In this document: positions 39,985 through 60,400 of the stretch, one piece after another
Position numbering within the stretch: the first letter of the stretch is position 1
Layout: every line of letters starts with the position of its first letter
From: Salinivenus sp.
GTDB taxonomy: Bacteria > Bacteroidota > Rhodothermia > Rhodothermales > Salinibacteraceae
Length of the DNA: 63,135 nucleotides
Reading direction: 5' to 3'
Assembly (NCBI GenBank): GCA_018609755.1
Contig: JAHENZ010000266.1
Coordinates: 1 to 63,135, forward strand
Position numbers and translations under genes: made by a program
Notes under the pieces: model-generated
The model's database searches: none
What the model was told of the DNA's origin: nothing
What the model saw: the letters and a program-made list of their open reading frames with translations, nothing else

Positions 39985-41268
39985 TTACCGGTCCGTGAGA
40001 ACTGGTTTTTCCAGGGCGGCACGGATGAGAGGGGCAGCGTCGTATGCTTGATGGATAATGTCGCAGACGTTGGCAATGTCTTGGTCGTCGACGGCCGTGC
40101 CGGTGGGGAGGGCCAAGAGCTGTGAGGCGAGCCGCTCGGTGCCGGGGAGTGCACGGCCTGCGTTGGGCTGCTCCGTTCGGTAAGGCTCCATCCGGTGACA
40201 GCCGGGGTGGAAGTAGCGGCGGGCGAGCACGTTCTCGGCCCGCAAAACGGCGAGAAGTTCGTCGCGCGTCAAGGGGGCGTCGGGCCCGACCTCAACGACA
40301 ATGTACTGGTAGTTGCGGGCCTCCGTCTCGTCGTATTCGATGAGGTGAAGGCCGTGAAGCGGGGAGAGCAGCGCGCCGTACGTGCGGTAGTGGCGACGAT
40401 TCGTCTCCACAATGTCCTGCATGCTGGAGAGGGACGTGAGCCCCATGGCCGCGCACACCTCCGACATTTTGGCATTCGTTCCCAGCGCCTCTACCTCGTC
40501 GGACGGAGAGTATCCAAAATTGGCCCCCTGCCGGATACGGGCGGCGAGGTCGTCGTCGTTGGTGGCCACGGCGCCGCCTTCGAAGCTGTTTACGAACTTC
40601 GTAGCGTGGAAACTGAAGGCTTCGGCGTCACCGAGGGTGCCAACCGGACGTCCCTTGTAGGTACATCCAAACGCGTGAGCCGCATCGAACAGGAGGGCGA
40701 GTCCGTGGGCGTCCGCAATCTCCTGAAGCGCGTCGACGTTGCAGGGGCGACCCCAGAGGTGCACGCCGAGAATGCCGCTCGTGCGGGGCGTAATGAGCTG
40801 CGCCGCATGATGGGGGTCGAGGTTGTGGGTTTCGGGATCCGCGTCGCAGAATACAGGCGTAATCCCATTGAGGCGAAGGGCGTGCACTGTCGCGACGAAC
40901 GTAAACGACGGGACGATGACCTCGCCGGTGAGGTCGAGCTCTCGAATCATGAGTTCGAGGGCCAGCGTTCCGTTGGCGAGTGCCACGCAATGCTTTGCAC
41001 CGGTCAATTTCTCAAGTTCACCCTCAAACTCCTGCACGATGGGGCCATTGTTCGTGAGCCATCGGTTCTCGAACATGCGGTCCACGAGCGCATCGAACTG
41101 GTCTCGGTCCCCCAAGTTGGGGCGGCCGACGTGTAAGGGCTGATTGAACAACGGCGGGCCGCCGAGAACCGCTAGGGGGCGAGTCGTCAGGGGGGCGCCG
41201 ATCTGAGGATGCTTTGGGGTTGCCGGTTTCGCCGACAGTAGCTTGTCGATGGGGGGAGCAGTAGACAT
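39985..41268 (-). CDS. DegT/DnrJ/EryC1/StrS family aminotransferase
   Basis: 427 residues from ATG 41268. PLP-dependent sugar aminotransferase fold: VALANGTLALELMIREL (95-111), VIVPSFTFVATVHAL, FDAAHAFGC with PLP-pyridine Asp195, and FSFHATKFVNSFEGG with the Schiff-base Lys224. GRPNLGDRDQFDALVDRMF near 48 and the late ANVCDIIHQAYD helix are also typical. It most likely aminates a 3- or 4-keto nucleotide sugar for the polysaccharide, though in a PKS/NRPS context it could aminate a biosynthetic intermediate. The N-terminal 30 residues are an extension. It is 321 bp downstream of the PKS gene. Confidence 0.88.
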   Translation of the reverse strand: MSTAPPIDKLLSAKPATPKHPQIGAPLTTRPLAVLGGPPLFNQPLHVGRPNLGDRDQFDALVDRMFENRWLTNNGPIVQEFEGELEKLTGAKHCVALANGTLALELMIRELDLTGEVIVPSFTFVATVHALRLNGITPVFCDADPETHNLDPHHAAQLITPRTSGILGVHLWGRPCNVDALQEIADAHGLALLFDAAHAFGCTYKGRPVGTLGDAEAFSFHATKFVNSFEGGAVATNDDDLAARIRQGANFGYSPSDEVEALGTNAKMSEVCAAMGLTSLSSMQDIVETNRRHYRTYGALLSPLHGLHLIEYDETEARNYQYIVVEVGPDAPLTRDELLAVLRAENVLARRYFHPGCHRMEPYRTEQPNAGRALPGTERLASQLLALPTGTAVDDQDIANVCDIIHQAYDAAPLIRAALEKPVLTDR

Positions 41269-41589
41269 GGCGCGTAGGAACAACGGGGGAGGGTGAAGGG
41301 GGCCCGTAATCTATGATGTTCGCGTGTCGTGCCGGTGAGTCATTGGAGCATAATCGGATAGGAGTCGGATTGAATACCCCCACGACAATGCGCGCTGACT
41401 GGAGGAGATTGGGAACATTCCGTCGTTCGACGGTGAGAGGTGACCATTCGTTAGCGACCGTTGAGTCTCCCGACCGCTCGCTCTAATAGGGATCCCAAAA
41501 TCGGAAATGGGAGCGAACGGTCACGATCTCCGTTCCCTCCTCGTTTCCCAAAATCGTCGGACGCGCCAGGGGCATTTGGCGTGTATTCC
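41269..41589. other. Intergenic region between PKS and aminotransferase genes
   Basis: 321 bp. A small CCGTCGTTCGACGG hairpin lies near 41420 and an imperfect stem near 41505-41545. No T-run terminator and no protein gene supported. Confidence 0.4.
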
Positions 41590-44500
41590 CTATGTCATCG
41601 CCTCTTCGGGGACGTCGGCCTTCTCGAGTTCGTGGCGCAGGGACTCCACGAGCGTTGAGATGTGTGGCTCATGGACCAACGAGTCGTGGTCGCCGGGGAT
41701 GGTGTAGATCTCGAGAGTCCCCTCCACCATCTCGTTCCATCCCAGATCATCTCCAATACGTCCTTCGAAGTCGCCCTTGTCGGAGGCTCCGAACAAGACG
41801 ATCCGGCCCGGATACGGTTCGACTTCATACTGGCTGGCGGCGTGGTGAAAGGCCCGGACCATGAGAATCTCGCGGAACGCGTGCGGCATCGTCCATCCCA
41901 TGGTTTCGTAAAGGGCAATGCCCCACTCGCGGAATCGATTGCGCTCCACGAGGAGTCGCTTGCTGAGGTACTTCTTCACGTACGTCCACCCGTCCTCTGA
42001 AAGACGATTCAGCCGCATGCGGAGCCGGTCGGTAAACCGAAACGGCTCTTGCGGCGAAAGGTGCGGATAGTACGTGTCCAGGAACGCGAGTAACTGGACG
42101 TCTTCGTCGTTGCGCAGAAGCTGTTGCGCCATCTCGTAGGCAATCACCCCGCCGCCCGAGTACCCGCCCAGCAGATAGGGCCCGCTGGATTGAACAGTGC
42201 GAATCGCGGCGAGATAGTCCGTCGCCATCGCCTCAATAGTCTCGTGCGGGCTGAACTTTCCGTTGACGCCCCGGGCTTGGAGGCCGTACACCGGTTGATC
42301 TGAGCCGAGGCGAACCGCCAGATCGCGGAAGTTCAGGACGTTCCCGCCTGCCCCGTGGACGCAGAAGAAGGGCGTCCGATCGCCACCCGGCTGGATCGGT
42401 ACGAGGGGATTGAACGTCGATTCGCCCTGTGAGGGAGTAGCAGAAGGGGTACTGAGCGCGAGGCTCATTTCTTCTTCTGAAGTTGCAGTCCCATCCCCGC
42501 TATCGGGCGAGAGGGAAATTCCTTTCTCCTCCCGGATCAGATCCGCGTACTCGGCAATCGTGGGGGCCTGCAGCAGGGCCGAGAGGGGGAGGTCCACCCC
42601 CAACTCGTTCTTTACCTTCGAGAAGATCCGAACGGCGATGAGGGAATGGCCGCCGATGTCGAAGAAGTCGTCGTGGATGCCGATGGAGCCGATACCGAGC
42701 ATCGATTCCCAGATCCGGGCGACGGTCCGCTCAATCTCGTCGCGCGGCGCATCGGCAGCGTCGGACGAGGCGTCCTCGGCTTCGCTGTTCGCGTCCTCAG
42801 AGCTTGGCGCCGGGAGGCCGTAGGTGTCGTCAATGTGTCCCTGCAAAGCGTTCACGTCTACGGGGGAAACGACGACCTGCGGGACGCCCGTGGTCGTGAG
42901 CAGTCGGCGGAAGACCTCACGTCCCTCCGCGACAGTCAGGGAATGATCCGCGTCGACGGCCCATTCGCTTGGAGTTCCGGTCGACGACCGTCGGCGCGTC
43001 CGGGGCGAGAGGGTGTCGGTGTTCGACAGTACGTCCACGGGGACTCGCTTCATGGAAAACGCGTCGATGGTGCCGACGAGCCGTCCGTCGTCGTCCCAAA
43101 GGGTTACGTCGAACGACACCAGATCGCGGTCGGCTGGATTGCTGCATCGCATCCGGCTGATCACGGTGGCGGGGAGGGGCCGAACGAACGTAGCGTTTTC
43201 GTAGGTGATCGGCACGTAGAAGTCGCGGTGCTCTGCGTAGTTGTTTAGGACCGGCAGGCCGAAGGCCGTAGCGATGTCGAGCAGGGCCGGGTGGGTGTGC
43301 ACGGTGTCCAGGTCGGTGGCAAACGTGTCGGGGAGCTCAAGCTTTGCCCATGCCGTGGAGCCGTTCAGCACCATCCACTTCAGAACATCCCACCGCGGGC
43401 CGAAGTCCATGGTCTCGTCCTGGTAGTTTTCGGGAAAGCCCGTCTCGGCGTCGAAGCGTGAGCCTTCAGGAATGAGGGTCGACAGGTCGACGGGGTCGGA
43501 TTCGGTCGCGTCCTCTGAAGCAACGTCCACCCGTCCGTGCGCATGGTCAAGCCATCCGTCGGCGGTCTTGCTCGAAATTGTGGCCTGGAGCCCGGCCGCC
43601 GTGCCTTCTTCGAGAAGGACCTCAACGTCGAGGGGGGCGTCCACACGAAGCGGCTCCTCGAACGTCAAGTCGTGGATCCGAACCGAGGCGCTGGGGTCAA
43701 TCTGTCGCAGCGCGGCGGTAAGAAGCTCCACGTAGCCGGTTCCCGGCAGCACGGCGGTGCCGTCGGGCAGGCGGTGCTCGTCCACGAGCCACTGGTCCGG
43801 CGCAAGCGTACCCGTAAAGCGGTGCGTCGCGTTGTCTTGGGTCCAGCGGGTCAGCACCGGATGCTGAATGTCGGTGCCGTCAGTGTCGTCGTCGCCGAGA
43901 GCGGCGGCCATACCTACGTCCTGCCACGCGCTCCAGTCGATCGCGATTGTCGGGAGGCCCTCCAGCGTGAATTCGTGGGCGGCGGCGTTGAGGTACGCGT
44001 TTGCGGCGCAGTAGTCCACCTGGCCGGGGAGGCCCAGCAGGGCACTCACCGACGAAAAGAGCACGACCTGCTCCACCGGCTGTTTTTTGAGCACGTCGCG
44101 GAGGACCTTCGTACCGGTCACCTTCGGGGCGAGGACGCGCTCGACGTCCTCGGTCGACTTCATGGGGATGGGCGCATCGTCGAGAACCCCTGCGGCGTGG
44201 AAGGCGCCCCGAATCGGGCCGATGGTCTTCGCCGTCCGCTTCACGACCGCACGCATCTGCGCTCGGTCGGTAACGTCGGCGGCCTCGACCGTAACCTGTG
44301 CACCAAGCGACTCAATCTGTTGGATCGAGCGAATCTTTTGCGCGGTTGCATCGGCAGGGCTTCGGGTGGACAGAATCTCGTCCCACTCCGTTCGCGGGGG
44401 CAGCCCCGACCGACTCACGAGGACAAAGTGGGCGGGGACCGTCTCCGCCACGTCCTCGACGAGGGAAAGGGCAAGTCCGCCGGTTCCCCCGGTGACGAGG

Positions 44501-47500
44501 TAGACGCCCTCGGAGTCGAGCGACATGGGGGCATTGTCGTTGGACGATACGGAGAGGGACTCGTAGGTCTGCGTATAGCGCCGACCGCGTCGGTAGGCCA
44601 CCGTTCGGTCTTGGGGGGACGAGGTAATTTCTTTCCACACCCCGGAGGCACTCGACTCGTCGACGTCGAGGACGCGGGGCTCTACGTTTGGAAGCTCGCG
44701 CGGGAGCACCCGGGCCGGGCCGAACAGGGTGGCCTTCTCCGAGTGGATGGTCGTATCTCCGGGAAGCGCGTGGAGGTGATCGCCGAGGATCACGAGGTCG
44801 AGCCGCTGCGAGAGCCCGCTTGTGCCGAGCACTTTTGCGAGGGCGAAGAGGTGCTTCCAGCCGGCCCCGACCTTCTCCAGAGACGAGGGCGCGGACGAAC
44901 CGGTCACGTTCCAGGCGTGCACGATGCGATCGAGGTCGCCCGTCGTCGCTCCCAGTTCGTCGAACAGTCGCTCCACGTCAGAGTCCTGATTGGCGCGGAC
45001 GACAAAGTTTCCGTTTCGTCGCTGCTTGAAGCGCCAGCCCTGATCGACGCGAATGACGTTCACGCCGTCCTGAACGGCCCGATCAATGAGGGAAGGGGCC
45101 ACGCTGTCGTCGGCAAACACGAGCCAGGTTTCCCCCTCGACGTCGTTGGTTTCCGATTCTATGATCGACGGGGACCAGGACGGAAGAGAGAAGAAGGAAT
45201 CGACGGACTCGCGCCGCTCCAGCGGGTCGGTTGACGTTCGCGATTCGCCGGGGGTAATCCAGTGAGACTCGCGCGCAAACGGGTAGGACGGAAGCGGAAT
45301 GCGTCGGCGGGTGTCGTCGGGATCGCGAAGCACCGACCAGTCGATCTCTACGCCCGCTTCCCAGACGCGGCCGAGAGCCTGGAGGACGAACTCGTCGTCC
45401 TGGGCCGTCTCTTTCGGGTGCCGAATCGTGGGGCACACCACGAGGGTGTCGGGGCGGTCGTCGTGCACGTCGGCAAAGGTGGACAGCGTGTGGCCGGGCC
45501 CAATTTCGAGGAGGAGCGGATTGGAGAGCTCAAGCAGTGCGCGTACGCCGTCCGAAAAGCGTACGGTGTCGCGCAGGTGGCGTGTCCAGTACGCGGCGCT
45601 GGTGGCTTCGTCATCCGTAATCCAGGTGCCGCTAAGGTTCGAGGCGAAGCGGCGGGTCGGCGGTTGGAGATCCACCCGCTCCACCGCCGTTCGGTACTCG
45701 TCGAGAATCGGATCCACCATGGGGGAGTGGCCGGCCACGTCGATGGGAACGACCGTTCCTTCGACGTCCCGATCCAGGAGCTCAAGCCGAAACGCCTCGA
45801 TCGCGTCGGCGGCACCGGACACGACGCACATGCTGGGGGCGTTGATGGCGGCGATGGAGAGCGCGTCCGGGAGAAGCGGGCGCACGTCGTCCGCCGGCAT
45901 CGGGACGCTCAGCATGCCGCCGGAGGGCAACGTCTCAAACAGGCGGCCGCGGACGCACATGAGCCGAAGCGCCTCTTCGAGAGACATGACCTCCGCGATG
46001 CACGCGGCTGCGTATTCCCCGGCACTGTGGCCAATCATTCCGTCCGGCTCGACTCCCCACGAGAGCCAGAGCCGAGCCATAGCCACTTCGATGGCGAGTA
46101 AGGCGGGAAGTCCGCGGGACGGCCGCTGGAGCTCCGTCCGAGCGGCGTCTTCGGTGTCTGAGGAGGGAAAAAGAAGGGGACGAAGATCGATGTCTTCCTC
46201 AGACTGGACGAATTGAATGGCCTGGTCGATCACCGAACGGAAGACGGGCTCGCGGTCGTACAGGTCGCGTGCCATGCCCGGGTACTGAGCACCGCCACCC
46301 GAGAACAGGAAGCCGATCGAGCGGCGAGGGAGAGCCGCAACGGGCTCTTCCGTCTCAGGGTCGCATCGGTCCACGAGCGACGGTGCATCCGAGGCGACAA
46401 CCGCCCGCCGGTAGTCGTATTCGGGACGACCGTTTTGCAGCGTGTGGCTGGCGTCCGCAAGGTTGATTTCCGGCTCCCCCTCCACGTGGCCCCCGAGGGC
46501 CGAGACCGACCGATTGAGCGCGTCGGGCGTCTTGGCCGAAAGGGGGAAGACCTGCGGGCGGGACGGTGTAGAGGTCGGAGCCATCGATGGGGCTTCTTCC
46601 ACGATCACGTGGGCGTTCGTGCCGCCCACACCGAGGGAGTTGACCCCCGCGCGACGAGGGGCGCCGTTTACGGACCAGTCTCGGAGCGAGTCATTGACCA
46701 CGAATGGGCTCTTCTCCAGTCCCAGCTTGGGGTTGGGGGTCTGGAAGTGGAGGCTCGGGGGAAGCTGGCGGTGCTTGAGGGCCTCGACGACTTTAATGAG
46801 GCTCGCGACGCCCGCGGCCGTGTCCAGGTGACCGATGTTGGTCTTTACTGAGCCAATCGCGCACTGACCGCCTCCCACGGTGGGTCCGTAGGCCTGAGAC
46901 AGGGCGGAGAGCTCGATGGGGTCGCCTACGGGCGTGCCGGTGCCGTGACACTCGACGTACGAGATGGTTTTGGGGTCCACGTCAGCAAGGCCCAGGGCCT
47001 CGGCGGCCGCGGCGGCCTGTCCGTCCACACTCGGCGTCAGGTACCCGGCCTTCTGGGCACCGTCGTTGTTGACGGCAGTGGCGCGAAGGACGGCGTGAAT
47101 CGTGTTGCCGTCGCGCACGGCATCTTCGTATCGCTTGAGCACGACCACCCCAGCTCCGCTTCCGAACACAGTGCCTTCGGCCTCGGCATCGAACGCACGG
47201 CAGTGGCCGTCCGGGGCGTGGATGCCCCCCTCTTGAAACAGGTATCCCCACCGTTCTTTCAGGTCAATGGTTGAGCCCCCCGCGAGAGCCACGTCGCATT
47301 CCCCGCTCAAAAGGCTTTGTGAGGCGACGTGCACGGCGACGAGAGACGTGGAGCAGGCCGTTTGCACGTTGACGCTCGGTCCTTTGAGGTCGAACGCGTA
47401 CGACGCGCGGGTCGACAGGAAATCCTTGTCGTTGCCGGCGTGCCGGACGTGGAAGTAGCCCAGCCGGTCAATCAGGTCGGGGTTGGTGGCCAGGTGGTCC

Positions 47501-47916
47501 TGGAAGTACGTGTTCATGCCGCACCCCGCGAACACGCCGATTGCCGCCGTGCTGCGGGTGGGGTCAATGCCGGCCCGATCGAGGGACGACCCCACGCACT
47601 CCAGAAAAATCCGGTGCTGGGGATCCATGATCGCGGCGTCCTGCGGGCTCATCCCGAAGAAGTTCGCGTCGAAGGCGTCGAGGTCGTCGAGGGCGCCGTG
47701 GACGGGAACGAAATTTGGATTCTCACGGCGGGAGCGCGGGACGCCGGCTGCTTCGAGTTCGTCGTCGGTGTATCGGCGGAGTGACTCGACACCGTCGCGC
47801 AGATTGGTCCAGTAGGCGTCCACCGTTGAAGCCCCCGGGAGGCGGGTGGCCATTCCGACGATGGCGATCTCGGACCCGACGTAGTCACTCGGGGGAGGAG
47901 ATGAAGGAGAGGTCAT
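41590..47916 (-). CDS. Type I polyketide synthase, KS-AT-KR-DH-ACP-TE
   Basis: 2108 residues. Ketosynthase 16-440: Cys188 in TACSTSL, His324 in ECHGTGTPVGDP, His363 in NIGHLD. Acyltransferase 535-830: Ser631 in GHSAGEY; the specificity motif reads VAGH (727-730), neither HAFH (malonyl) nor YASH (methylmalonyl). Ketoreductase 1135-1335: VTGGTGGLA, LDD at 1245-1247 (B-type marker), Tyr1302 and Asn1306. Dehydratase 1355-1625: His1381 in EHRLPDGTAVLPG (one residue longer than the usual HxxxGxxxxP) and Asp1547 in HPALLD. Carrier 1725-1795: Ser1758 in GGHSL. Thioesterase 1848-2100: Ser1920 in GYSGGG, Asp1947, His2077 in GDHDS. The dehydratase after the ketoreductase is a non-canonical order. One extension cycle and release are predicted. 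Both NRPS and PPTase genes lie upstream on the same strand. Confidence 0.93.
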   Translation of the reverse strand: MTSPSSPPPSDYVGSEIAIVGMATRLPGASTVDAYWTNLRDGVESLRRYTDDELEAAGVPRSRRENPNFVPVHGALDDLDAFDANFFGMSPQDAAIMDPQHRIFLECVGSSLDRAGIDPTRSTAAIGVFAGCGMNTYFQDHLATNPDLIDRLGYFHVRHAGNDKDFLSTRASYAFDLKGPSVNVQTACSTSLVAVHVASQSLLSGECDVALAGGSTIDLKERWGYLFQEGGIHAPDGHCRAFDAEAEGTVFGSGAGVVVLKRYEDAVRDGNTIHAVLRATAVNNDGAQKAGYLTPSVDGQAAAAAEALGLADVDPKTISYVECHGTGTPVGDPIELSALSQAYGPTVGGGQCAIGSVKTNIGHLDTAAGVASLIKVVEALKHRQLPPSLHFQTPNPKLGLEKSPFVVNDSLRDWSVNGAPRRAGVNSLGVGGTNAHVIVEEAPSMAPTSTPSRPQVFPLSAKTPDALNRSVSALGGHVEGEPEINLADASHTLQNGRPEYDYRRAVVASDAPSLVDRCDPETEEPVAALPRRSIGFLFSGGGAQYPGMARDLYDREPVFRSVIDQAIQFVQSEEDIDLRPLLFPSSDTEDAARTELQRPSRGLPALLAIEVAMARLWLSWGVEPDGMIGHSAGEYAAACIAEVMSLEEALRLMCVRGRLFETLPSGGMLSVPMPADDVRPLLPDALSIAAINAPSMCVVSGAADAIEAFRLELLDRDVEGTVVPIDVAGHSPMVDPILDEYRTAVERVDLQPPTRRFASNLSGTWITDDEATSAAYWTRHLRDTVRFSDGVRALLELSNPLLLEIGPGHTLSTFADVHDDRPDTLVVCPTIRHPKETAQDDEFVLQALGRVWEAGVEIDWSVLRDPDDTRRRIPLPSYPFARESHWITPGESRTSTDPLERRESVDSFFSLPSWSPSIIESETNDVEGETWLVFADDSVAPSLIDRAVQDGVNVIRVDQGWRFKQRRNGNFVVRANQDSDVERLFDELGATTGDLDRIVHAWNVTGSSAPSSLEKVGAGWKHLFALAKVLGTSGLSQRLDLVILGDHLHALPGDTTIHSEKATLFGPARVLPRELPNVEPRVLDVDESSASGVWKEITSSPQDRTVAYRRGRRYTQTYESLSVSSNDNAPMSLDSEGVYLVTGGTGGLALSLVEDVAETVPAHFVLVSRSGLPPRTEWDEILSTRSPADATAQKIRSIQQIESLGAQVTVEAADVTDRAQMRAVVKRTAKTIGPIRGAFHAAGVLDDAPIPMKSTEDVERVLAPKVTGTKVLRDVLKKQPVEQVVLFSSVSALLGLPGQVDYCAANAYLNAAAHEFTLEGLPTIAIDWSAWQDVGMAAALGDDDTDGTDIQHPVLTRWTQDNATHRFTGTLAPDQWLVDEHRLPDGTAVLPGTGYVELLTAALRQIDPSASVRIHDLTFEEPLRVDAPLDVEVLLEEGTAAGLQATISSKTADGWLDHAHGRVDVASEDATESDPVDLSTLIPEGSRFDAETGFPENYQDETMDFGPRWDVLKWMVLNGSTAWAKLELPDTFATDLDTVHTHPALLDIATAFGLPVLNNYAEHRDFYVPITYENATFVRPLPATVISRMRCSNPADRDLVSFDVTLWDDDGRLVGTIDAFSMKRVPVDVLSNTDTLSPRTRRRSSTGTPSEWAVDADHSLTVAEGREVFRRLLTTTGVPQVVVSPVDVNALQGHIDDTYGLPAPSSEDANSEAEDASSDAADAPRDEIERTVARIWESMLGIGSIGIHDDFFDIGGHSLIAVRIFSKVKNELGVDLPLSALLQAPTIAEYADLIREEKGISLSPDSGDGTATSEEEMSLALSTPSATPSQGESTFNPLVPIQPGGDRTPFFCVHGAGGNVLNFRDLAVRLGSDQPVYGLQARGVNGKFSPHETIEAMATDYLAAIRTVQSSGPYLLGGYSGGGVIAYEMAQQLLRNDEDVQLLAFLDTYYPHLSPQEPFRFTDRLRMRLNRLSEDGWTYVKKYLSKRLLVERNRFREWGIALYETMGWTMPHAFREILMVRAFHHAASQYEVEPYPGRIVLFGASDKGDFEGRIGDDLGWNEMVEGTLEIYTIPGDHDSLVHEPHISTLVESLRHELEKADVPEEAMT

Positions 47917-48123: not shown

Positions 48124-49038
48124 TTACGGGGCGAACACGGAACGCCAAAAAGCGGGCCGCAGGCTGTCGAGCCCCGAGCGGACAACGACCTGTCCGGCCT
48201 GTAGTAGCCGCAACCCGAGCTTGCCGTATGCGCCCGCTCGCGCATTTCGCTTTACTGAGATGAGGTAGTTCCGGACGAGCTGGGCACGCCAGTACACCGA
48301 CGTGGCGGATGCGAGCGCCCGACGGAGCGCGTCCGGCTGGTCGAAAATCGTTTCGTGGGCTTCGAGCAAGTACTCGACGTCCATTGAACGGGGAGAGGCG
48401 CTCTCCTCCATGCCCTCGCTGTACCGGAAGACCAACTCCGGGACCCGTACGAGGTCGGACCGCAAGGACATGCGCATCATGAGGTCCATGTCCTCGGAGG
48501 TGGGATACCTCGGGTCAAATCCCCCCGCCTCAAAAAAGAGGTCCGACCGGACGAGTGAGGCCTGAAGGGGAAACCATTCGCCACTGAGGAGGGCAGCAAG
48601 CACGTTGCCTTCAAGCGTCTGGGGAAGCCGATCGATAAAGTCTCCGGATCGGGTCACCCGTTCGACACAGCCGTGAATCCATCGAGCGTCCGGGTGGTGT
48701 TCGAGGGTCCGTCGGAAGGCCTGGAAGGCCCCCGGAAGCATCAGGTCGTCGTCATCGAAAAAGTGCAGGTATCTGCCCGTTGCAAGGACGGCCCCCACGT
48801 TGCGAACCGTTCCGCACCCCATGCGGCTTTTTCCCGTACTTGTGGTTCGGATGCGATCATCGTCTGGGAGCAAGCCGTCCGGCAAGGGGGCGTCTGAATC
48901 GTTGAGGACGATCACGTCGTGATCGATCCCCTCGAGATCCTGAGTCAGAATGCTCTCAAGAGACTTTCGCAGATGCTCTCGTCCGACCGTCGGAACGATG
49001 GAGGAAATGGAGACCGAGACGGCGTTGGAAGAGGACAT
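48124..49038 (-). CDS. Glycosyltransferase family 2
   Basis: 304 residues. VSISSIVPTVGREHLRKSLE (8-27) begins the GT-A domain; VIVLNDSDAPLPDG and LHFFDDDDLMLPGAF (about 92-106) are the nucleotide and metal sites; GGFDPRYPTSEDMDLMMRM carries the usual ED acceptor motif. It lies between the NRPS and PKS genes on the same strand, so a glycosylated assembly-line product is possible. Its 5' end overlaps the small ORF at 48956-49147 in another frame. The leader lacks the pyrimidine tract common elsewhere. Confidence 0.85.
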   Translation of the reverse strand: MSSSNAVSVSISSIVPTVGREHLRKSLESILTQDLEGIDHDVIVLNDSDAPLPDGLLPDDDRIRTTSTGKSRMGCGTVRNVGAVLATGRYLHFFDDDDLMLPGAFQAFRRTLEHHPDARWIHGCVERVTRSGDFIDRLPQTLEGNVLAALLSGEWFPLQASLVRSDLFFEAGGFDPRYPTSEDMDLMMRMSLRSDLVRVPELVFRYSEGMEESASPRSMDVEYLLEAHETIFDQPDALRRALASATSVYWRAQLVRNYLISVKRNARAGAYGKLGLRLLQAGQVVVRSGLDSLRPAFWRSVFAP

Positions 49039-49215: not shown

Positions 49216-52200
49216 TCACCGTCGGGTAAATGCCTGTCGGCGCCGTTCCGCGCGCGAGGTTCCTCGGGTTGCGCCCTCAGCGGTGTCGGCGTCGGTGTCG
49301 AGGTGGTCGGCCAGGGACCGGATCGTCGGGAACTGGAAGAGGTCGACGATCGGGATTTCGCGATTCATCTCGTCACTCAGCTGGCGCACCACCTGTACGG
49401 CGAGCAGCGAGTGCCCGCCCAGGTCGAAGAAGTTTTCATTCACACCGATGTGATCCAGGTCCAGCACCCGCTTCCAGACCGTGCTGACCAGTTCTTCGAT
49501 CTCGTCGGTTGGGGCGTCGAACGAGTCGGTCTGGACGGCGCGAGGGGGCCTCGGGTCGGGGAGGGCGTTCCGGTCCACCTTGCCGTTCGGGGTGAGCGGG
49601 AAGGTCTCGACCGTGGTGAAGTGGGAGGGCACCATGACGTTCGGAAGAACACGTGCGACTCCCTCTCGAATGGCCTCCGGATCCACGGAATGGTCCTCCT
49701 CGGGCTGGAGGTAGGCTACGAGGCGCTGATCATCGTCATCGTTTGTGTACACGTTCGCGACCGCGGCCCGGACGCCGTCCTGGCGTTCCAGGGCAGCTTC
49801 AATCTCCCCTAACTCAATTCGGTGGCCCCGAATCTTGACCTGGAAGTCGACGCGGCCGAGGAAGTCGAGCGTGCCATCGTCCCGGTAGCGCACGAGGTCG
49901 CCGGTCCGGTACATCTGACCGTCGTGGAACGGGTTGTCGACGAAGCGCTCGGCCGTGAGCGTCTCGCGGTGCAGGTAGCCGTTCGTGACGCCGTCGCCCC
50001 CAATCCAGAGCTCGCCCGGCGCGCCGATGGGCACCAACTCCCGGGCCTCGTCGAGCACGTAAAACGTCGTGTTCGCGATCGGGGTGCCGATGGACACGGG
50101 GCCGTCCACGTTCTCGACCGGCCACGTAGAGGACCAGATGGTGGTTTCCGTGGGGCCGTACATGTTGCACACCGATCCGCCGACCACCTCCGTCAGTTCA
50201 CGTGCCAGGGCGGGAGGCAGTGTTTCGCCCCCCACCATCATGTGAAACACGCGGTCGAGGGCGTCGCGCGAATCTGCGTCTCCCACGAGCATTCGGGCCT
50301 GCGAAGGTGTGCACTGCAGGTGGGTCACGTCGTGGCGCCGAATCTGGGCCGGAAGCGAGTCGTCCGTTACAGGGGGGGCTGCGGCAGAACGACCGTTCGT
50401 GCGGTGGGAGTCGTCCACCAGGTCGTCGGCGCGGTCCTTCACCGTCGCGAGTGCAGGCAGGTGGTCCAGCACCGTCTGCGCGTCGATTCCAAAGTCGAGG
50501 AGGCAGGCAATTTCGTTCACCCCGACGGCGGCAACTTCGGCGACCCGTTCGAGGCACTGCTCCGGGGTTCCGAAGAGCCCACTCGTGGCGTAGTACCGCT
50601 CGAATGCGTGCTCCAGCACGGCGTCCATTTCGTCGTCGCTCAGTTCGTCCAGCGAGAAGTCTCCGGCCTCGTTCGTCGTTTTCTGCTTGAAGGTCGGGAA
50701 GGACCAGGCCGCTTTTTTGATGAGCCCGATCGAGCTTCGAAGATAGCTCTTCATGGGCTCGCGGACGATGGACCGCACCGCCTCTTCGCTGTCGCCGACG
50801 AAGGAGTGAAGCATGAGGGTGACGGTGCCCTCGCCCGGGTGTCCCGCCTCGTTCCGGGCGCGCCGGTAGATCGCGATTTTCTCCTCGAGCTCGTCGACCG
50901 TCTGGCCGAGGAGGTGGGTCAGCATGTTGTATCCGCCCGCGCCGGCCTGCTCGAACGTTTCGGGGTTCCCGGCTGCCGTCACCCAGACCGGAAGCTCGGA
51001 CTGAACGGCCCGCGGGAGCGTGCGGACCGTCACTGGGCCGTCGGGACCGTCAAACGTCCGGTCCTCGCCGCGCCAGAGGGCTTTTACCTGCTCGATCTGC
51101 TCGAACATGAGTTCCTTCCGGTCGGCATAGTTGTCGGGCTGAATGACGAAGTCGTCCGGTTGCCAGCCGGCAGCGAATGAAATGCCCACTCGGCCGTTCG
51201 AGAGGTTGTCTACGACCGCCCAGTCTTCCGCAATCCGGACCGGGTGGTGCAGGGGCGACACGCACGAACCCGCACGGATGCCGATCGACTCGGTGCGCGC
51301 TGCAATGGCGGCACTGATCACCGAGGGGTTCGGGTAGAGGCCGCCGAAGTCGTGAAAGTGGCGTTCGGGGGTCCAGATGGCTTCAAATCCGTGGGTGTCG
51401 CCGAATTCGGCGCCTTCGAGGAGAAGGCGATACTTGTCGGAGGCCCCGCCGGAATCGTCGAGCTTCTCGTCACTCGAGAAGTAGAACAGGCTAAAGTCCA
51501 CCGGCTGATCGAGAGCGGGACGAGGGGTAGACGTTCCATTTTGGGCATGCGAGGAGGGATCGGCCGCCGGGTGTTCGGCGCGGGTCCGGTCGCTCGTGTG
51601 CAGCACCACGTGGAATCCGCGCGTCAGCGTCCAGAACAGCTCAAGCACCGAAATGTCGAACGAGATGCTCGTCACGGCGAGCCAGACGTCGTCCCGGTCG
51701 TCCGACCGTGGGATCCGGTCGTCCATGCCGGCGAAGAAGTTTGCGAGGTTCCGGTGCGTGACGACAACGCCCTTCGGCTTGCCGGTCGACCCGGACGTGT
51801 AGATGACGTATGCGGTGTGGTCGGGGCTTGCCTCACGGTTCGGGGGGGCGGTCGACCGTGCGGACAGGGCATCGGCCTCTTCGTCCAGGAGGAGCAGGGG
51901 GCTCTCCGACGCGTCCAGCAGATGGGTGAACGTGCTGTGCGAAATCACACAGGCGAGTTCCGCGTCCGCCACCATGAAGGCGATCCGATCGGCGGGGTAG
52001 GACGGATCGAGGGGCACGTAAGCGGCGCCGGCCTTCCAGATGCCCAGGAGCGACACGATCATGTTGAGGGAGCGCTCTACGCAGACGCCGACGAGGTCGC
52101 CGGGCTCGACGCCCATGTCGATCAGGTGCCGGGCCATCTGGTTTGCCCGCTCGTCGAGGCGGCGGTACGACAGGGTGTCGTTCCGATACGTCGCGGCGGT

Positions 52201-53946
52201 CGCGTCCGGCGTTCGTTCGGCCTGAGCCTCAAATTGATGGTGGATTGGGGTCGGGTCGTACGAGCGCTCGGTGTCGTTCCAGTCCTCAAGGAGCGTGTGG
52301 ATGGTCTCTTCGGACAGTATCGGGAGGTGCTGGAGGGACGGCTCAGTCTCGGCCAGCGCGCTCGTGAGGAAACGCTCAAACTGCGCCTGGAGCTGCTTGA
52401 AGTGGTCGGAAGAGAGTCGGGTGGCGTCATACGCCCAGTGCACCGTTCCGGACGAGGACGGCTGCATCGACAAGGCCACGCCGTGCGGGAGAGACGGAGA
52501 CGGGTCGGCGGCCTCGGATAGGACGACCTCGACATTGAACCGAGAACGCTCTGCGTTTTCCGACAGCGCCGGGGTGCGAACAAAGATGTCGTGGGCGTAC
52601 GTGCCTCGTTCCTTCGTCGTTGCGAGACGCTCTTGGATGTGGGCGAGGGCCGCGGCCGGGGAGGCGTCCAGATCCACGTCGAGGGTACACGGGACAGTTG
52701 AGGCGTAGAAGGTGTCGAGTCCTTGTACTGCCTCGTCGAGCGACGCGTGGCGCAGGCCGACGGTCACCGTCCGAGACTGGGTGAGCCGGGCCAGGAATGC
52801 GATCCAGTATGCGCCCAGCGTGTCCGGGTCCAAATCGGTTGCCCCCTCAATGGATTGAGCGTCGACCGACGACGTGCGAACGTCAGCGGGGCCGTCTGCC
52901 GGGGTCACGTACGGAAGGTCAAGGGGGCGGGCCCGCTGGAGCTGCGTACGCCAGAAGGACTCGTCTTGGGCGACGGCGGATTGAACATTCCGAAGCCGGG
53001 CGGCCGTTTCGTCGTCGAGGCGGGGAAGACGTTCTCCCACGCGAAGGCTGTGCTCCGATGCAACCGATTCGAGGTCGACGGCGGTTCCGGTAAGGCTCGA
53101 AAGGGAGGGGATGGACACGTCTTCGGTGCTCGTCGACACCATGAGCCGATCGGGGCCGACCTCAAGAAGGGTCCCCGGCGCTTTTTCGGAAGCGGTCGCC
53201 AGCACGTCGAGGCTGTTCACGCGGTATACCGCGTCGCCAAGGTGGATTTTCGGCGTTCCGAGCGGGTTCAAGGCAGGGCCGAACGTGAGCCCGCGGACCC
53301 GCGCGCTCAACGACTGCGCCGACATGTTCCAGTCCAGAACCCCCGCGCGGGCCGGCCGCTTGTCCCGGGCGTAGTACGTCTGGGACGAGAGGTCTTGTGC
53401 CTGCGGCGAGAGGGTCTCCTGCTCCAGACCGCCGATCAATTCCTCGAAGGACTCGATGCCGGCCTCGTAGCACTTGGTATTCAGCGTGAACACCGTATCG
53501 TCGGACGCGATGGGGAATCGGCGCTGGACGAGAATGTCCCCTTCGTCGACCTCTGCCGTCATCTCGTGCCACGTCACGCCGTGTTCGTCGTGTTGCTCGA
53601 TGATCGACCAGGCCGGAACGTACATGCCCGCCCGTTCGGGGAGGGGGCCGTCGTGGAAGTTGATAGCGCCACGGCGCGGAGCGTCGAGCACCGGGGCGGG
53701 CACGATGCGGAGGTTCGCGATGCTGAAGAAATAGTCGAACTCGCGGTCGCGGAGACGGGGCACGTAGTCGTCCGTCGGGGACCATTGCGTGAGCTCCCGC
53801 TCGCGGGTCCACTTTTGGATTTGATCGTCGTTTGCGATCACACCAACAATTTCGTGACCGCGCTCAAGGAGGTAGTTGCCACACTGGATGAGCAGAGATT
53901 GCTCACCCATGAGAACACAGCGGAAAGAGGGGGGGGAAGCCATCAT
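49216..53946 (-). CDS. Non-ribosomal peptide synthetase: formyltransferase, half-C, A with inserted luciferase-like monooxygenase, PCP
   Basis: 1576 residues. Formyltransferase 1-310: INFHDGPLPERAG with Asn96 and His98, and VDEGD with Asp134. Residues 322-550 resemble only the second half of a condensation domain (ESFWRTQLQ onward); no HHxxxDG is present. Adenylation motifs: A2 LGIWKAGAAYVPLDP 634-648, A3 YTSGSTGKPKG 716-726, A4 FDIS 763-766, A5 NMYGPTE 1261-1267, A7 YRTGDL 1346-1351, A8 1364-1386, A10 NGKVDRNAL with Lys1456. A luciferase-like monooxygenase of the MupA/Atu3671 type (about 815-1175; YFSSDEK, GFEAIWTPERHF, SPLHHPVRIAEDWAVVDNLS) sits between A4 and A5. Carrier Ser1513 in GGHSLL. 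By eye the pocket reads D-I-L-Q-M-G-M-I-W, close to the glycine code. No release domain; the product should pass to the PKS. Confidence 0.92.
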   Translation of the reverse strand: MMASPPSFRCVLMGEQSLLIQCGNYLLERGHEIVGVIANDDQIQKWTRERELTQWSPTDDYVPRLRDREFDYFFSIANLRIVPAPVLDAPRRGAINFHDGPLPERAGMYVPAWSIIEQHDEHGVTWHEMTAEVDEGDILVQRRFPIASDDTVFTLNTKCYEAGIESFEELIGGLEQETLSPQAQDLSSQTYYARDKRPARAGVLDWNMSAQSLSARVRGLTFGPALNPLGTPKIHLGDAVYRVNSLDVLATASEKAPGTLLEVGPDRLMVSTSTEDVSIPSLSSLTGTAVDLESVASEHSLRVGERLPRLDDETAARLRNVQSAVAQDESFWRTQLQRARPLDLPYVTPADGPADVRTSSVDAQSIEGATDLDPDTLGAYWIAFLARLTQSRTVTVGLRHASLDEAVQGLDTFYASTVPCTLDVDLDASPAAALAHIQERLATTKERGTYAHDIFVRTPALSENAERSRFNVEVVLSEAADPSPSLPHGVALSMQPSSSGTVHWAYDATRLSSDHFKQLQAQFERFLTSALAETEPSLQHLPILSEETIHTLLEDWNDTERSYDPTPIHHQFEAQAERTPDATAATYRNDTLSYRRLDERANQMARHLIDMGVEPGDLVGVCVERSLNMIVSLLGIWKAGAAYVPLDPSYPADRIAFMVADAELACVISHSTFTHLLDASESPLLLLDEEADALSARSTAPPNREASPDHTAYVIYTSGSTGKPKGVVVTHRNLANFFAGMDDRIPRSDDRDDVWLAVTSISFDISVLELFWTLTRGFHVVLHTSDRTRAEHPAADPSSHAQNGTSTPRPALDQPVDFSLFYFSSDEKLDDSGGASDKYRLLLEGAEFGDTHGFEAIWTPERHFHDFGGLYPNPSVISAAIAARTESIGIRAGSCVSPLHHPVRIAEDWAVVDNLSNGRVGISFAAGWQPDDFVIQPDNYADRKELMFEQIEQVKALWRGEDRTFDGPDGPVTVRTLPRAVQSELPVWVTAAGNPETFEQAGAGGYNMLTHLLGQTVDELEEKIAIYRRARNEAGHPGEGTVTLMLHSFVGDSEEAVRSIVREPMKSYLRSSIGLIKKAAWSFPTFKQKTTNEAGDFSLDELSDDEMDAVLEHAFERYYATSGLFGTPEQCLERVAEVAAVGVNEIACLLDFGIDAQTVLDHLPALATVKDRADDLVDDSHRTNGRSAAAPPVTDDSLPAQIRRHDVTHLQCTPSQARMLVGDADSRDALDRVFHMMVGGETLPPALARELTEVVGGSVCNMYGPTETTIWSSTWPVENVDGPVSIGTPIANTTFYVLDEARELVPIGAPGELWIGGDGVTNGYLHRETLTAERFVDNPFHDGQMYRTGDLVRYRDDGTLDFLGRVDFQVKIRGHRIELGEIEAALERQDGVRAAVANVYTNDDDDQRLVAYLQPEEDHSVDPEAIREGVARVLPNVMVPSHFTTVETFPLTPNGKVDRNALPDPRPPRAVQTDSFDAPTDEIEELVSTVWKRVLDLDHIGVNENFFDLGGHSLLAVQVVRQLSDEMNREIPIVDLFQFPTIRSLADHLDTDADTAEGATRGTSRAERRRQAFTRR

Positions 53947-54091: not shown

Positions 54092-54904
54092 TTAGCGAGT
54101 GTTAGACGAGGAGGGGGGATCCAGGGTGACTGTGGCGTTTGGGACGCGACAAGCGACCGCGGCCGAATAGCCCGGTGCAAGGGGAAGGGCATGGAGGGTC
54201 CAGGTGTCGGGGGACTCCCCTTCGATCCGTCGGACTGTGGCCGCACGGTCGGGACGGAACTCGACGTCGAATCGGGAGAGCCCGAACGAAACTCCTGCTC
54301 CATCGGCTTTGATGACGGCCTCTTTCCGGGTCCAGATGTCGAAGAAGGAGGAACGATGCATTTCGGAGGGGAGGGACAACAGCGTCCGCTGCTCCCAGGG
54401 CGAAAAGACCGACGGCATTAGCTCGGCCACGTCGATCTCATCCTCGTGCTGTTCCACGTCAATTCCGAGGTCGAGCATACCTCCCGCGGCCACGAGGATC
54501 CAGTTGCCACTGTGAGACAGATTGATTCCGAATGCTCCATCCTGGGGCTGGGTCTCGATTCGGGGTTTGCCCATCGCCTCCTGACGAATGGAAAGCGATT
54601 CTGGAGGACGGCCAAGATAGTGGGAGGCGAGCACGCGCAGAGCGCCACGACCCAGAATGAATCGGGTTCGGTCGGGAGTCGATCGGAACCGGTGGGCACG
54701 AGTGCGTTCTTCGTCAGAGAGAAGGCCCCAAAACGAGGGAAGCACGTCGAGCCACTCGGACACCTGAAGGCGCCACACGTGCACGTCCCCCGGTTTCAGG
54801 GGAAACGAGTGCGCTTTATTTGTCCCCTCCGCAGTCATCGTCGTGAGGGCAGTGGGACCACCACGATCGGAAGGGGACGGGAAGGGAAAGGAAACCGTCG
54901 ACAT
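54092..54904 (-). CDS. 4'-phosphopantetheinyl transferase, Sfp type
   Basis: 270 residues. Adds the phosphopantetheine arm from CoA to carrier-protein serines. Motifs: INLSHSGNWILVA near 127-139, GIDVE at 147-151 (metal-binding Asp and Glu) and FFDIWTRKEAVIKADG from 187. Length is typical of the Sfp class. The start ATG 54904 shares one base with the upstream SGNH gene's stop codon (TAATG), which supports this start and translational coupling; an internal ATG at codon 23 is an alternative. Its targets are most likely Ser1513 of the NRPS and Ser1758 of the PKS. Confidence 0.92.
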   Translation of the reverse strand: MSTVSFPFPSPSDRGGPTALTTMTAEGTNKAHSFPLKPGDVHVWRLQVSEWLDVLPSFWGLLSDEERTRAHRFRSTPDRTRFILGRGALRVLASHYLGRPPESLSIRQEAMGKPRIETQPQDGAFGINLSHSGNWILVAAGGMLDLGIDVEQHEDEIDVAELMPSVFSPWEQRTLLSLPSEMHRSSFFDIWTRKEAVIKADGAGVSFGLSRFDVEFRPDRAATVRRIEGESPDTWTLHALPLAPGYSAAVACRVPNATVTLDPPSSSNTR

Positions 54905-55677
54905 TACTGCGTTCGCGAGGCCGCGACTGTATTCTGAGTGGGTGTGAGCAAGGGGCGGAGCTGGTCCGCCACGACCTGGTAGCCCGCGCCGTTCAGGTGA
55001 ACGTGGTCAAAGGTGTAGTCGAAATTGAGGGGGGCCCCGTTCGGGCCTTCCAGCGCGGGGGCGACGTCGACGACGGTGGCGTCGTGCTTCTGGGCAAGGG
55101 GGGAGAGTTCTTCGTTTACAGTGTTCAACACCGTGTTGACGGCCCGGCTGTTTGGGAGTCCTGAGCCGAAGCGAGGAATGGTGAGTACGATCAGTGCCGT
55201 GGAGGGACTGTTGGTTCGCAGGGTGCCGAGAAGGTTGTCGTAGTTCGTCAGAATCTCTTCGGCAGATTTCCCCAGCCGGGCGTCGTTTGCGCCGGTGAGA
55301 AGAACGATTGCTTTCGGCGCCCCGCGCGTCAGTTGGTCGGTCCGATGTAACAGGTCGGCGGTGGTTTCTCCTCCAATGCCGCGGTTCAGGACGGGCACTG
55401 GCAGGAACTCACCCCACCGTCCCCGCTCAACGTGGCTGTCCCCGACGAACAAAACGGAAGAGGAGTCGACGGGCAGTTGGTCGAACTGGCTGACGAGGGC
55501 TCGGTAGTAGGTCGACTCGTGGAAGGGGCTGTCCGGTGGAGAGTACGGGGACGATACGAAGTGCTCGGTGTACTTCGAGTGGAGATAGTCGAAGCCGCCC
55601 TTTTTCCACACAAAGCCGCAGAGGCCCATGACGATGAGAAGATTCAGGCCGAGGGAAAAGAGGAGGGCTGTTTTCAT
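54904..55677 (-). CDS. SGNH/GDSL-family hydrolase, membrane-anchored
   Basis: 257 residues. An N-terminal hydrophobic segment (about 4-24) anchors or exports it. All four SGNH blocks are visible: Ser81 in VGDSH, Gly102-103 in GIGGE, Asn131 in TGAND, and Asp224/His227 in DHVHLNG. This group includes acyl-esterases and polysaccharide O-acetyl-transfer or -removal enzymes. Its overlap with the PPTase gene suggests a role with the assembly-line product, for example moving or removing an acyl group in the periplasm (inference). Confidence 0.87.
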   Translation of the reverse strand: MKTALLFSLGLNLLIVMGLCGFVWKKGGFDYLHSKYTEHFVSSPYSPPDSPFHESTYYRALVSQFDQLPVDSSSVLFVGDSHVERGRWGEFLPVPVLNRGIGGETTADLLHRTDQLTRGAPKAIVLLTGANDARLGKSAEEILTNYDNLLGTLRTNSPSTALIVLTIPRFGSGLPNSRAVNTVLNTVNEELSPLAQKHDATVVDVAPALEGPNGAPLNFDYTFDHVHLNGAGYQVVADQLRPLLTPTQNTVAASRTQ

Positions 55678-55973
55678 GAGACAGGGAACAGGTAAAACGG
55701 AACGGAAGCACTCTGATAATAGGGGCAGGCCTCCGGAGAAAGGAAAGCCATTCACCAATCGGGGATGGAACGTTTGGCGCGTGGCGCTCCGTCACCCCCA
55801 GGAAGAGCGGGACCGGGCGCCTGCCGTAGGTGTCGTTTTGATTCCTCGTGGTCACCCCGAAGTCGCTTCTCCTTCGCCTGCGGGCAAGCCATACCCGTAT
55901 GGGCGAGAATACCGGCTGCCCTCAACCAGTCTGCAGTCGGCATGGGATACTCCTCTCCCCCCAGCACGTGAAA

Positions 55974-56543
55974 TCAAAACATCTCTTGAAAGGGAAGAGA
56001 CAGGGAGGCGGAGATGTCCGAGAGTCGAGGCGAAGATCCGTCTCCCGATTCACTTGTGGTGCGTATTCCGCGGTACTCGCTCTGGAGGTGGAGCAAAGAA
56101 GAGGGAGTGTCGGCCACGGTCGTCCAGAGCACGTGTCCGACGACGATCGACTTGTCGCCGACGTGGATCATCCGTTCGGGTTCGCAGCACAGGATGAGGG
56201 CCGTATCATCGAGAAGTGGAGGGCCGTCGGGGGAGACCGAGTGCGAGATCCCGGCGAATTGTTCTTCTTGCGTTAGACCTGAGCGAGCAAACCGTCGGGA
56301 GAGGTCGGACTGAGAGGCAGAGAGCACGTGAACGGCAAATTTGGGCCCGGACTCCAGAAGGGGGTGGATTCGACTTTGCCGCCCAATGTTGAAGGAGATG
56401 AGGGGAGGGTTGAGACTCAGGCTCGTGAACGAGCCGATGGTAACGCCTCGGTACTTCTCTTCCGTGCCTGCAGTGACGACAGTGACGGCAGAAGGAACGT
56501 GGCGCATGGTCTCGCGGAGCGTGTCGGCACTGAGCAGAGGCAT
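55974..56543 (-). CDS. Flavin reductase family protein (FMN-dependent)
   Basis: 189 residues. VTVVTAGTEEKYRGVTIGSFTSLSLNPPLIS (residues about 20-50) and KFAVHVLSASQSDLSRRFA match the flavin-reductase-like (split-barrel FMN-binding) domain; GDKSIVVGHVLW is the late conserved segment. These proteins reduce FMN with NAD(P)H and hand it to two-component monooxygenases. It lies upstream of the NRPS, PPTase and SGNH genes on the same strand, so it is the natural partner of the luciferase-like domain in the NRPS. The last 25 residues are Ser-rich. Leader before ATG: CCCCCCTCCGTCCC. Confidence 0.88.
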   Translation of the reverse strand: MPLLSADTLRETMRHVPSAVTVVTAGTEEKYRGVTIGSFTSLSLNPPLISFNIGRQSRIHPLLESGPKFAVHVLSASQSDLSRRFARSGLTQEEQFAGISHSVSPDGPPLLDDTALILCCEPERMIHVGDKSIVVGHVLWTTVADTPSSLLHLQSEYRGIRTTSESGDGSSPRLSDISASLSLPFQEMF

Positions 56544-58671: not shown

Positions 58672-60400
58672 TAACCGCAGGACGCTGGTGCTCGCTTCGT
58701 GAGTTTCTTCTTTATTTCAGGAGTGGGTGTGCATTTTTGGCTGGTAAGTTGAAAGTGCTCGTTTGAATCTGTGCTTCGAAGGCAAGTTCTGACCTTGAGT
58801 TGATCGGTTTGTAGGTTTGCCCCCGGCTGGGACAGAGGACGTATTTCTTTTGACTGTGGCTCTTGACCATGAGGTCTAGATCGTCCCCTCCGGCCGGGAG
58901 GTTTGAGCTCGGTGGGGTAGCTTGGGGCTCGACCCCGTTTTTCCCGCCAGCTAGAGCGATGCCTTTGATCGGTCAGGGGCAGACTCAGCCGTCTTGCTAA
59001 ACCTGTTGAATCAGACCCCCGAGACCAATGAACGTGTACGTAGGCGGCGACGTCTCGAAGGGATACGCCGATTTTTGTTTGATGGACGGAGACGGCGAAA
59101 TCCTGCTTGAGATTCAGCTCGACGATACTCGTCAGGGGCACAGCCGGATGGGCGAGCTCATTCGGAAGTGCCATCGAAAAGTCGACTCGGAGGGGGAACT
59201 GGAAGTTGCTCTCGAAGCTACTGGAGGGATGGAACGCAACTGGCTGCACCTGTTCCGAGAACTGGATGAGAGCGGGGAAGCCGACTTGGAAGTCTATCGG
59301 TTCAATCCACTGGTTATCCGGCGGTTTGCCGAACAGAACCTCCACCGAAATAAGACCGATGAGATCAGCGCGCGGGTCTTGGCCGACTACCTCCGCCTGG
59401 GCCTGGCCGAAACGAAGGCGGCCTACACCGACGAGGGCCCCGATGACGGGCTCAAGACTCTGGCGCGCAAGACACAGCGAATGACAGAGCGCTCCGTCGA
59501 CCTCCAAAACGAGCTCAAGGCCCTGCTTCAGCGGACCCACCCTGAGCTTGTTCAATACGTCCGAAGCCACGTGAGCAAATGGATTTTGAGGCTGATAAAG
59601 CAATATCCGACGCCTGAGCAGGTGGCAGAGGCCGGCCCAGAGGCGCTCAGCGAGATTCCATACGTCACAGAGGAGAAAGCGACTCGGATTGTCGAGGCCG
59701 CTCGGACCTCCGTGGCGAGCCAAACGGACGAGGACACGGGCCTGACCCTCTCGCTCGTGGCCGAAGACCTTCTCCGGCTCACCGGGCGGATCGATCAGCT
59801 CAAAGAGCGGCTCTGGAACAAGGTCCGAGACCGACGCGCTCCCCACCTTATCGCCTCGATTGAGGGAATTGGAAAGTGGAGCGCAGCGGGAGGAAAGCGG
59901 CGACGTTGCCCGAGAGAAAACGATCAGCAAGCAGGGCAACGCCCACATCCGATCGGTGCTCTACGGCTGTGTGACCGCCGCCATCCGGAACGGAAGCAAT
60001 CCGCCCGTGCGGGACCTCTACGACCGGCTCACCGGGCGCGGCAAGCATCAGAAGGTTGCCGAGGTTGCCTGCATGCGGAAGCTTCTGGCGATCGTGTACG
60101 GGTGCTGGAGCAACGATGAGCGGTTCGATCCAACCTACGAGAAGCGCCTGAAGGCCCGTCAGACAGAGAAGAAATCCGCTGGCGAGGCCTCCGAGGCGAA
60201 AGATGCGAGCCAGAGCCGCGACATGTCGGCTCCGGTCTCCCAGAAGGAAGCAAAGAAAAGGAGGAAGGCCACCTCGCCAGAGAAGAGCGTGAGCCCTTCA
60301 GCGCGTGGTCAAGGGGCCTTCCTCGAAGAACATCATAACGGTGAGTCTGCTTCGGAGCAAGCTTGACAATCAACTGGGTATCTGGATCCAAAAATGCACC
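58672..60400 (+). mobile_element. IS110-family insertion sequence, decayed (approximate ends)
   Basis: About 1.7 kb with a transposase pseudogene at 59028-60366. Ends are not exact: IS110 elements lack terminal inverted repeats. The left limit is placed where similarity between the two small KKF peptide ORFs stops (58654-58672). The roughly 350 bp between there and the transposase start has no plus-strand gene. In IS110 elements such a non-coding end encodes the bridge RNA; I can only propose this region as a candidate. Confidence 0.6.
59028..60366 (+). pseudogene. IS110-family transposase, inactivated by internal deletion and frameshift
   Basis: The N-terminal RuvC-like DEDD domain begins MNVYVGGDVSKGYADF (Asp8), has ALEATGG (Glu63) and NKTDEISARVLADY (Asp111; the fourth acidic position reads Ser114 by my alignment). 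A coiled region follows to IASIEGIGK at about residue 280. There the frame that continues from 59028 turns to Arg/Pro-rich nonsense ending at 60119, while the frame from 59860 gives SGDVAREKTISKQGNAHIRS, the C-terminal Tnp domain, with the catalytic-Ser region RSVLYGCV. Between them about 40 residues of the usual GIG-to-SG segment are missing, so a deletion of roughly 120 bp with frameshift is inferred. The C-terminal tail is Lys/Ser-rich. Confidence 0.85.

Follow-up and report, generated by a model that had tools for sequence, protein, structure and literature searches.

What does a glycine-type adenylation domain do with a flavin monooxygenase lodged inside it, when the module carrying both appears to start an assembly line and is surrounded by polysaccharide genes? 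The question is raised by a stretch of 63,135 nucleotides from Salinivenus sp., here called the window, in which an open frame on the minus strand (53946-49216) encodes a 1576-aa protein of a nonribosomal peptide synthetase (NRPS). The frame runs without a stop through the insert, and Pfam and NCBIfam give the domain order formyltransferase (FT), adenylation (A) domain part 1, luciferase-like monooxygenase (LLM), A part 2 and peptidyl carrier protein (PCP). The features of the protein are the following.

49216-53946, minus strand: putative initiating NRPS protein FT-C'-A[LLM]A-PCP, 1576 aa
53047-53946, minus strand: formyltransferase domain, residues 1-300 (PF00551/PF02911; N96, H98 and D134 intact)
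52243-52965, minus strand: C-terminal lobe of a condensation domain, residues 328-568 (profile match to 8hlk)
51589-52233, minus strand: adenylation domain part 1 (A1-A4), PF00501 stretch, residues 572-790
50368-51588, minus strand: A4/A5 insertion with linkers, ~407 aa (alignment, Pfam, NCBIfam)
50440-51495, minus strand: luciferase-like FMN monooxygenase, residues 818-1169 (TIGR04020; structure like 6ket)
49561-50367, minus strand: adenylation domain part 2 (A5-A10) with a glycine-type pocket (Pfam and code alignment)
49300-49488, minus strand: peptidyl carrier protein with a GGHS motif (PF00550; serine motif kept in homologues)

The sequence-only reading had proposed a MupA/Atu3671-type FMN monooxygenase between A4 and A5 in the same frame, with about 495 residues from FDIS to NMYGPTE, and the closer analysis bears this out. 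Motif A4 (FDISVLEL) lies at residue 763 and A5 (NMYGPTETT) at residue 1261, 498 residues on, and both TIGR04020 and PF00296 match between them. Where nothing is inserted, as in GrsA PheA, A4 and A5 are only ~87 residues apart. Alignment places the insert, including linkers, at approximately residues 787-1193 (51588-50368). The TIGR04020 match covers the whole domain (E value of 7.9e-148; 492 bits against a cut-off of 244; model positions 1-340 of 341), which supports assignment to the MupA/Atu3671 type, and PF00296 matches with an E value of 2.4e-52. A chance or frameshift artefact was ruled out by the single open frame and by the alignment of 80 related loci across the whole A4-LLM-A5 stretch.

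Other arrangements of the same domains are also found. In a genome of the same phylum (L032:8862-13382), the LLM lies between the C and A domains, not within A. Furthermore, three distant lineages have doubly interrupted A domains, in which an LLM at A4/A5 is joined by a methyltransferase after A8, in modules that contain a C domain.

L033:6992-12448: doubly interrupted A domain, methyltransferase of the FkbM type
L102:5362-11073: doubly interrupted A domain, class I methyltransferase
L114:1525-7080: doubly interrupted A domain, class I methyltransferase

A structural model of the A[LLM]A-PCP region has a mean pLDDT of 85.1 and a pTM of 0.59, with uncertain domain orientation. Within it, the A-domain parts flanking the insert match NRPS A domains, including 1amu, while the insert matches the OX domain of PuwE (PDB 6ket), from a hybrid PKS/NRPS, with a target TM score of 0.89 and 45% identity, indicating the same fold. 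To our knowledge, the PuwE domain is not inside a glycine A domain. Loss of flavin-binding residues, which had been named as grounds for rejecting the assignment, is not apparent, judging from this identity over the full length of 6ket and from intact family motifs; the LLM motifs are conserved across 73 aligned homologues.

The substrate pocket was then read by alignment, with code positions fixed by the A4, A5, and A10 motifs and with the GrsA sequence as an anchor only. The ten residues, D764, I765, L768, Q1211, M1237, G1239, M1262, I1270, W1271, and K1456, give DILQMGMIWK, reproducing the D-I-L-Q-M-G-M-I-W read earlier by eye. This is identical at 9 of 10 positions to DILQLGMIWK, the exact code common to four MOX-bearing glycine A domains in a survey (PMC12283262), and is thus consistent with the predicted glycine-type domain. 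All 73 aligned sequences, the window included, fit the pattern DILQ[MLFYC]G[MV][IV]WK, and 12 of them have DILQLGMIWK itself.

The region ahead of the A domain bears on where the module stands in its assembly line. Residues 1-570 were predicted by AlphaFold2 with a mean pLDDT of 93.2, and the FT part superimposes on the ArnA formyltransferase 2bln (Z of 26.7, rmsd of 2.7 over 291 residues). The Asn-His-Asp triad of the FT (N96, H98, and D134) is intact in the window and in 63 of the 73 aligned sequences. Between FT and A, ~240 residues match only the C-terminal lobe of a condensation domain in a profile search (McyB chain 8hlk, residues 200-476; E value of 8e-20). This assignment rests on the profile search because FT matches took up the Foldseek and VIA-align results for the FT-C' model. 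The N-terminal lobe with HHxxxDG is absent, and no HHxxxD motif precedes the A domain in any of the 63 FT-type homologues. The C-lobe match and the missing motif therefore point to a starter module that once had a full C domain and has since lost the catalytic half. The earlier view that the module is initiating and N-formylating is thereby upheld at the level of sequence, by the absent catalytic lobe and by an N-terminal FT with an intact triad, respectively.

To establish how widely this architecture occurs, genomes were scanned with the A4-LLM-A5 stretch, yielding at least 323 relatives, of which the best 80 were retained. These 80 align over the whole stretch with 51-60% identity and come from more than ten phyla, Chloroflexota, Acidobacteriota, Planctomycetota, Gemmatimonadota, Myxococcota, Cyanobacteriota, Actinomycetota, Verrucomicrobiota, Omnitrophota, Poribacteria, and Pseudomonadota being represented, with the proviso that some loci are metagenome bins whose taxon labels may be wrong. 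An FT lies upstream in 71 of the 80 (best 80 of at least 323), a count that overstates independence, as the loci are phylogenetically related. A quick-method LLM tree has long branches that meet and many unresolved forks, and does not show that the FT form arose only once. In this tree, L038 (Myxococcus sp. CA023) and L039 (Comamonas sp. KCTC 72670) sit side by side, almost identical and with one layout, which suggests that one of the two records is mislabelled or contaminated.

The NRPS gene has a constant partner. Of 53 FT loci flanked on each side by 7 kb or more, 50 contain a ketosynthase (KS) homologue with more than 50% identity, and the neighbours of the FT loci line up as KS-AT-KR-DH-ACP-TE. 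An independent plasmid search with the polyketide synthase (PKS) recovered most records carrying the full-length NRPS. The KS, AT, KR, DH, ACP, and TE motifs of the window PKS are intact and are conserved in most of 50 aligned PKSs; its KR has an LDD motif as in B-type KRs, variable among homologues. We also note that KR precedes DH, whereas DH precedes KR in common modular PKSs, and that the partner PKSs share this order. Neither the NRPS nor the PKS gene occurs in the 12 other genomes of the genus that were searched, while a UvrD gene in the flank shares 94% identity with a genome of that genus; the pair was therefore probably gained together and sporadically. The same UvrD identity lends no support to contig contamination. 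An IS110-type transposase lies close to the right cluster edge (59028-60119). The partner and the other neighbours in the window are listed here.

41590-47916, minus strand: partner PKS, KS-AT-KR-DH-ACP-TE, 2108 aa (Pfam)
48124-49038, minus strand: family-2 glycosyltransferase (GT2) between the NRPS and PKS genes (PF00535)
39985-41283, minus strand: DegT/DesI-like sugar 4-aminotransferase (PF01041; TIGR04427 at 524 bits, below its cut-off of 650)
54092-54904, minus strand: 4'-phosphopantetheinyl transferase (PPTase; PF01648)
54904-55758, minus strand: GDSL-type acylhydrolase (PF13472)
55974-56543, minus strand: flavin reductase, likely supplier of FMNH2 (PF01613, E value of 1.1e-35)

By Pfam, the window is a region of the O-antigen or exopolysaccharide (EPS) type, with many glycosyltransferases, sulfotransferases, epimerases, an O-antigen ligase-like protein, and the DesI-like aminotransferase. 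Within 10 kb, at least one recognised polysaccharide gene is present in 44 of the 80 loci and at least two in 35, mostly in Alphaproteobacteria, where a GT2 gene often lies between or beside the PKS and NRPS genes. At six annotated plasmid loci, the pair sits amid EPS genes; plasmids of Ruegeria, Parasedimentitalea, and Paracoccus show the order PKS-GT2-NRPS, and those of Aminobacter and Shinella carry the NRPS-PKS pair among EPS genes. The window GT2 is not matched by a profile of the alphaproteobacterial GT2, so that the shared position is one of layout only. At the Chloroflexi, planctomycete, and Myxococcus loci, recognised polysaccharide genes are mostly missing, as scored with proteobacterial profiles that may miss others. 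The PPTase cluster is common to 22 related loci. A ~325-aa protein with no Pfam match (e.g., L083:13321-14295) occurs in 15 related loci, often right after the PPTase. Upstream of the NRPS gene in the window is the flavin reductase gene (56543-55974), and on a Streptomyces plasmid, the LLM-bearing NRPS gene is directly followed by a flavin reductase gene; tblastn found no relative of the window's reductase in the 80 loci (best 80 of at least 323).

The architecture, the pocket, the intact catalytic motifs, the conserved pairing, and the gene context are read directly from the sequences, and from them we infer the chemical steps, their order, the product, and a link to polysaccharide. On balance, we lean toward an N-formyl-alpha-hydroxyglycyl starter module that feeds a one-module PKS with TE release, the product likely being a surface-polysaccharide substituent in Alphaproteobacteria and in the window. 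The A domain would adenylate glycine and load the PCP, and the FT domain would N-formylate the bound glycine. The LLM, with O2 and FMNH2 probably from the neighbouring flavin reductase, would then hydroxylate Calpha, giving N-formyl-alpha-hydroxyglycyl-S-PCP. As formylation turns the amine into an amide, the formyl group would stabilise the carbinolamide, which would be retained and not split. The PKS would add one C2 unit, with KR reduction and possible DH dehydration, to give a C4 formamido-hydroxy acyl chain that the TE would release or transfer. In Alphaproteobacteria and the window, the chain would probably become a surface-polysaccharide substituent, with an amino sugar as one possible site of attachment. 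The product may be a 4-formamido-4-hydroxy C4 acid or the unsaturated counterpart; a lactone could conceivably form, though this is speculative.

Whether the hydroxylated glycine is kept is the point on which this pathway turns. In myxothiazol and melithiazol biosynthesis, the same A4/A5 insertion hydroxylates the glycine Calpha and the carbinolamide then splits (PMC11342130, PMC10204066), so that, by analogy, cleavage and not retention in the best-studied relatives argues against our reading. Were the carbinolamide to collapse here as in MtaG/MelG, formamide and glyoxylyl-S-PCP would result, and the PKS would extend a C2 aldehyde starter. Although this is the described outcome for such a monooxygenase, we consider it unlikely for the window: formylation merely to discard formamide would be wasteful, as un-acylated alpha-hydroxyglycine would collapse unaided, and yet the triad is intact in those 63 of 73 homologues. 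The maintenance of the FT across phyla argues for retention of hydroxyglycine. The methyltransferases after A8 in related elongation modules likewise suggest that the residue is retained and would fit a retained hydroxyl, most directly in the case of the FkbM type.

The remaining alternatives concern the LLM itself. As conglobatin shows (PMC4504003), an FT-A(Gly)-PCP starter can supply a PKS, and the window module might load plain N-formylglycine, as in oxazolomycin and conglobatin, with an LLM that is dead or acts differently. A domain that no longer works should decay, whereas the LLM motifs are conserved across the 73 homologues and the domain is as close to PuwE as noted above, making this reading quite improbable. 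Least probable is oxidation of nitrogen, by which formyl, glycine, and flavin oxygenase would yield a hadacidin-like, metal-binding hydroxamate starter, N-formyl-N-hydroxyglycyl; described assembly-line flavin monooxygenase domains of this kind hydroxylate the carbon alpha to the thioester, and neither the window nor the annotated plasmid loci showed recognisable siderophore genes.

Returning to the N-formyl-alpha-hydroxyglycyl starter, we extend it only tentatively to the proposal that a widespread two-gene NRPS-PKS line makes a small acyl group primed with this unit (e.g., the 4-formamido-4-hydroxy C4 acid) that decorates exopolysaccharides, as a non-sugar substituent of bacterial surface polymers that recurs across phyla and is supplied by thiotemplate chemistry. 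Whichever way that falls, an odd domain insertion becomes a conserved, testable pathway: with no more than two core proteins and a single small predicted product, in vitro reconstitution is feasible, and many plasmid-borne copies are found in marine and soil bacteria that can be cultured. Should the link to polysaccharide be true, cell-surface sugars would commonly be decorated with an assembly-line product, and one could study how a stable alpha-hydroxyglycine unit is made.

On its sequence, the window module is a member of TIGR04020 and of the A4/A5-interrupted glycine domains, and not one of the terminal amide-forming modules. The A4/A5 monooxygenase insertion is already known, from myxothiazol and melithiazol. 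What may be new, as far as the literature searched can indicate, is the initiating form with an FT and half a C domain, the pairing with a fixed PKS, and the location among polysaccharide genes: no description of an FT/LLM/PKS pathway or of an NRPS-PKS in EPS loci was found in the open-access literature, nor was a homologue of the same architecture with a known product.

Several characterised systems share parts of this design. LgrA, for linear gramicidin, likewise has an N-terminal FT ahead of A and PCP. Its module 1 activates valine and is not known to have a monooxygenase insert or a condensation C-lobe between FT and A. The window module differs from LgrA-type starters in its LLM and its half-C domain, the FT-to-A junction containing the C-lobe at residues 328-568. 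The pederin family may offer a precedent for an oxidised, O-methylated glycine, although no argument here draws on it. As in the window, the FT-A(Gly)-PCP modules of OzmO and CongA pass a formylglycine starter to a PKS (PMC4504003); for these, however, an oxygenase is not reported and the path leads to an oxazole, whereas the window module has the LLM, and no cyclodehydratase of the CongE/OzmP type was recognised among window genes in a general Pfam scan. That alpha-hydroxyglycine can be retained is established by solanimycin B and skyllamycin (PMC10204066). The SolF insert lies between a8 and a9 in an elongating module, in contrast to the A4/A5 insert of an initiating module here, and the skyllamycin oxygenase is a stand-alone enzyme, while the window LLM is built into the A domain.

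In Phaeobacter inhibens, the reported PKS Inhi_1972 and NRPS Inhi_1974 have locus tags that differ by two, and no product is stated for them (PMC4062626). A Phaeobacter locus among the relatives (L103) has the layout PKS-GT2-FT/NRPS, and from layout only, Inhi_1972 and Inhi_1974 probably belong to the same NRPS-PKS family as the window pair. Finally, the precedent invoked in the sequence-only reading, an FMN monooxygenase at A4/A5 of a glycine A domain in myxothiazol and melithiazol, is as it was stated, MtaG and MelG having the insert at the same place as here (PMC11342130, PMC10204066), and the chemistry in the window may well differ, as that reading expected. MtaG and MelG are terminal modules that split glycine so that an amide remains; in contrast, the window module, with its N-terminal FT, a half C domain without the catalytic lobe, and the TE on the PKS, appears to initiate, to formylate, and to hand its product on to a PKS.
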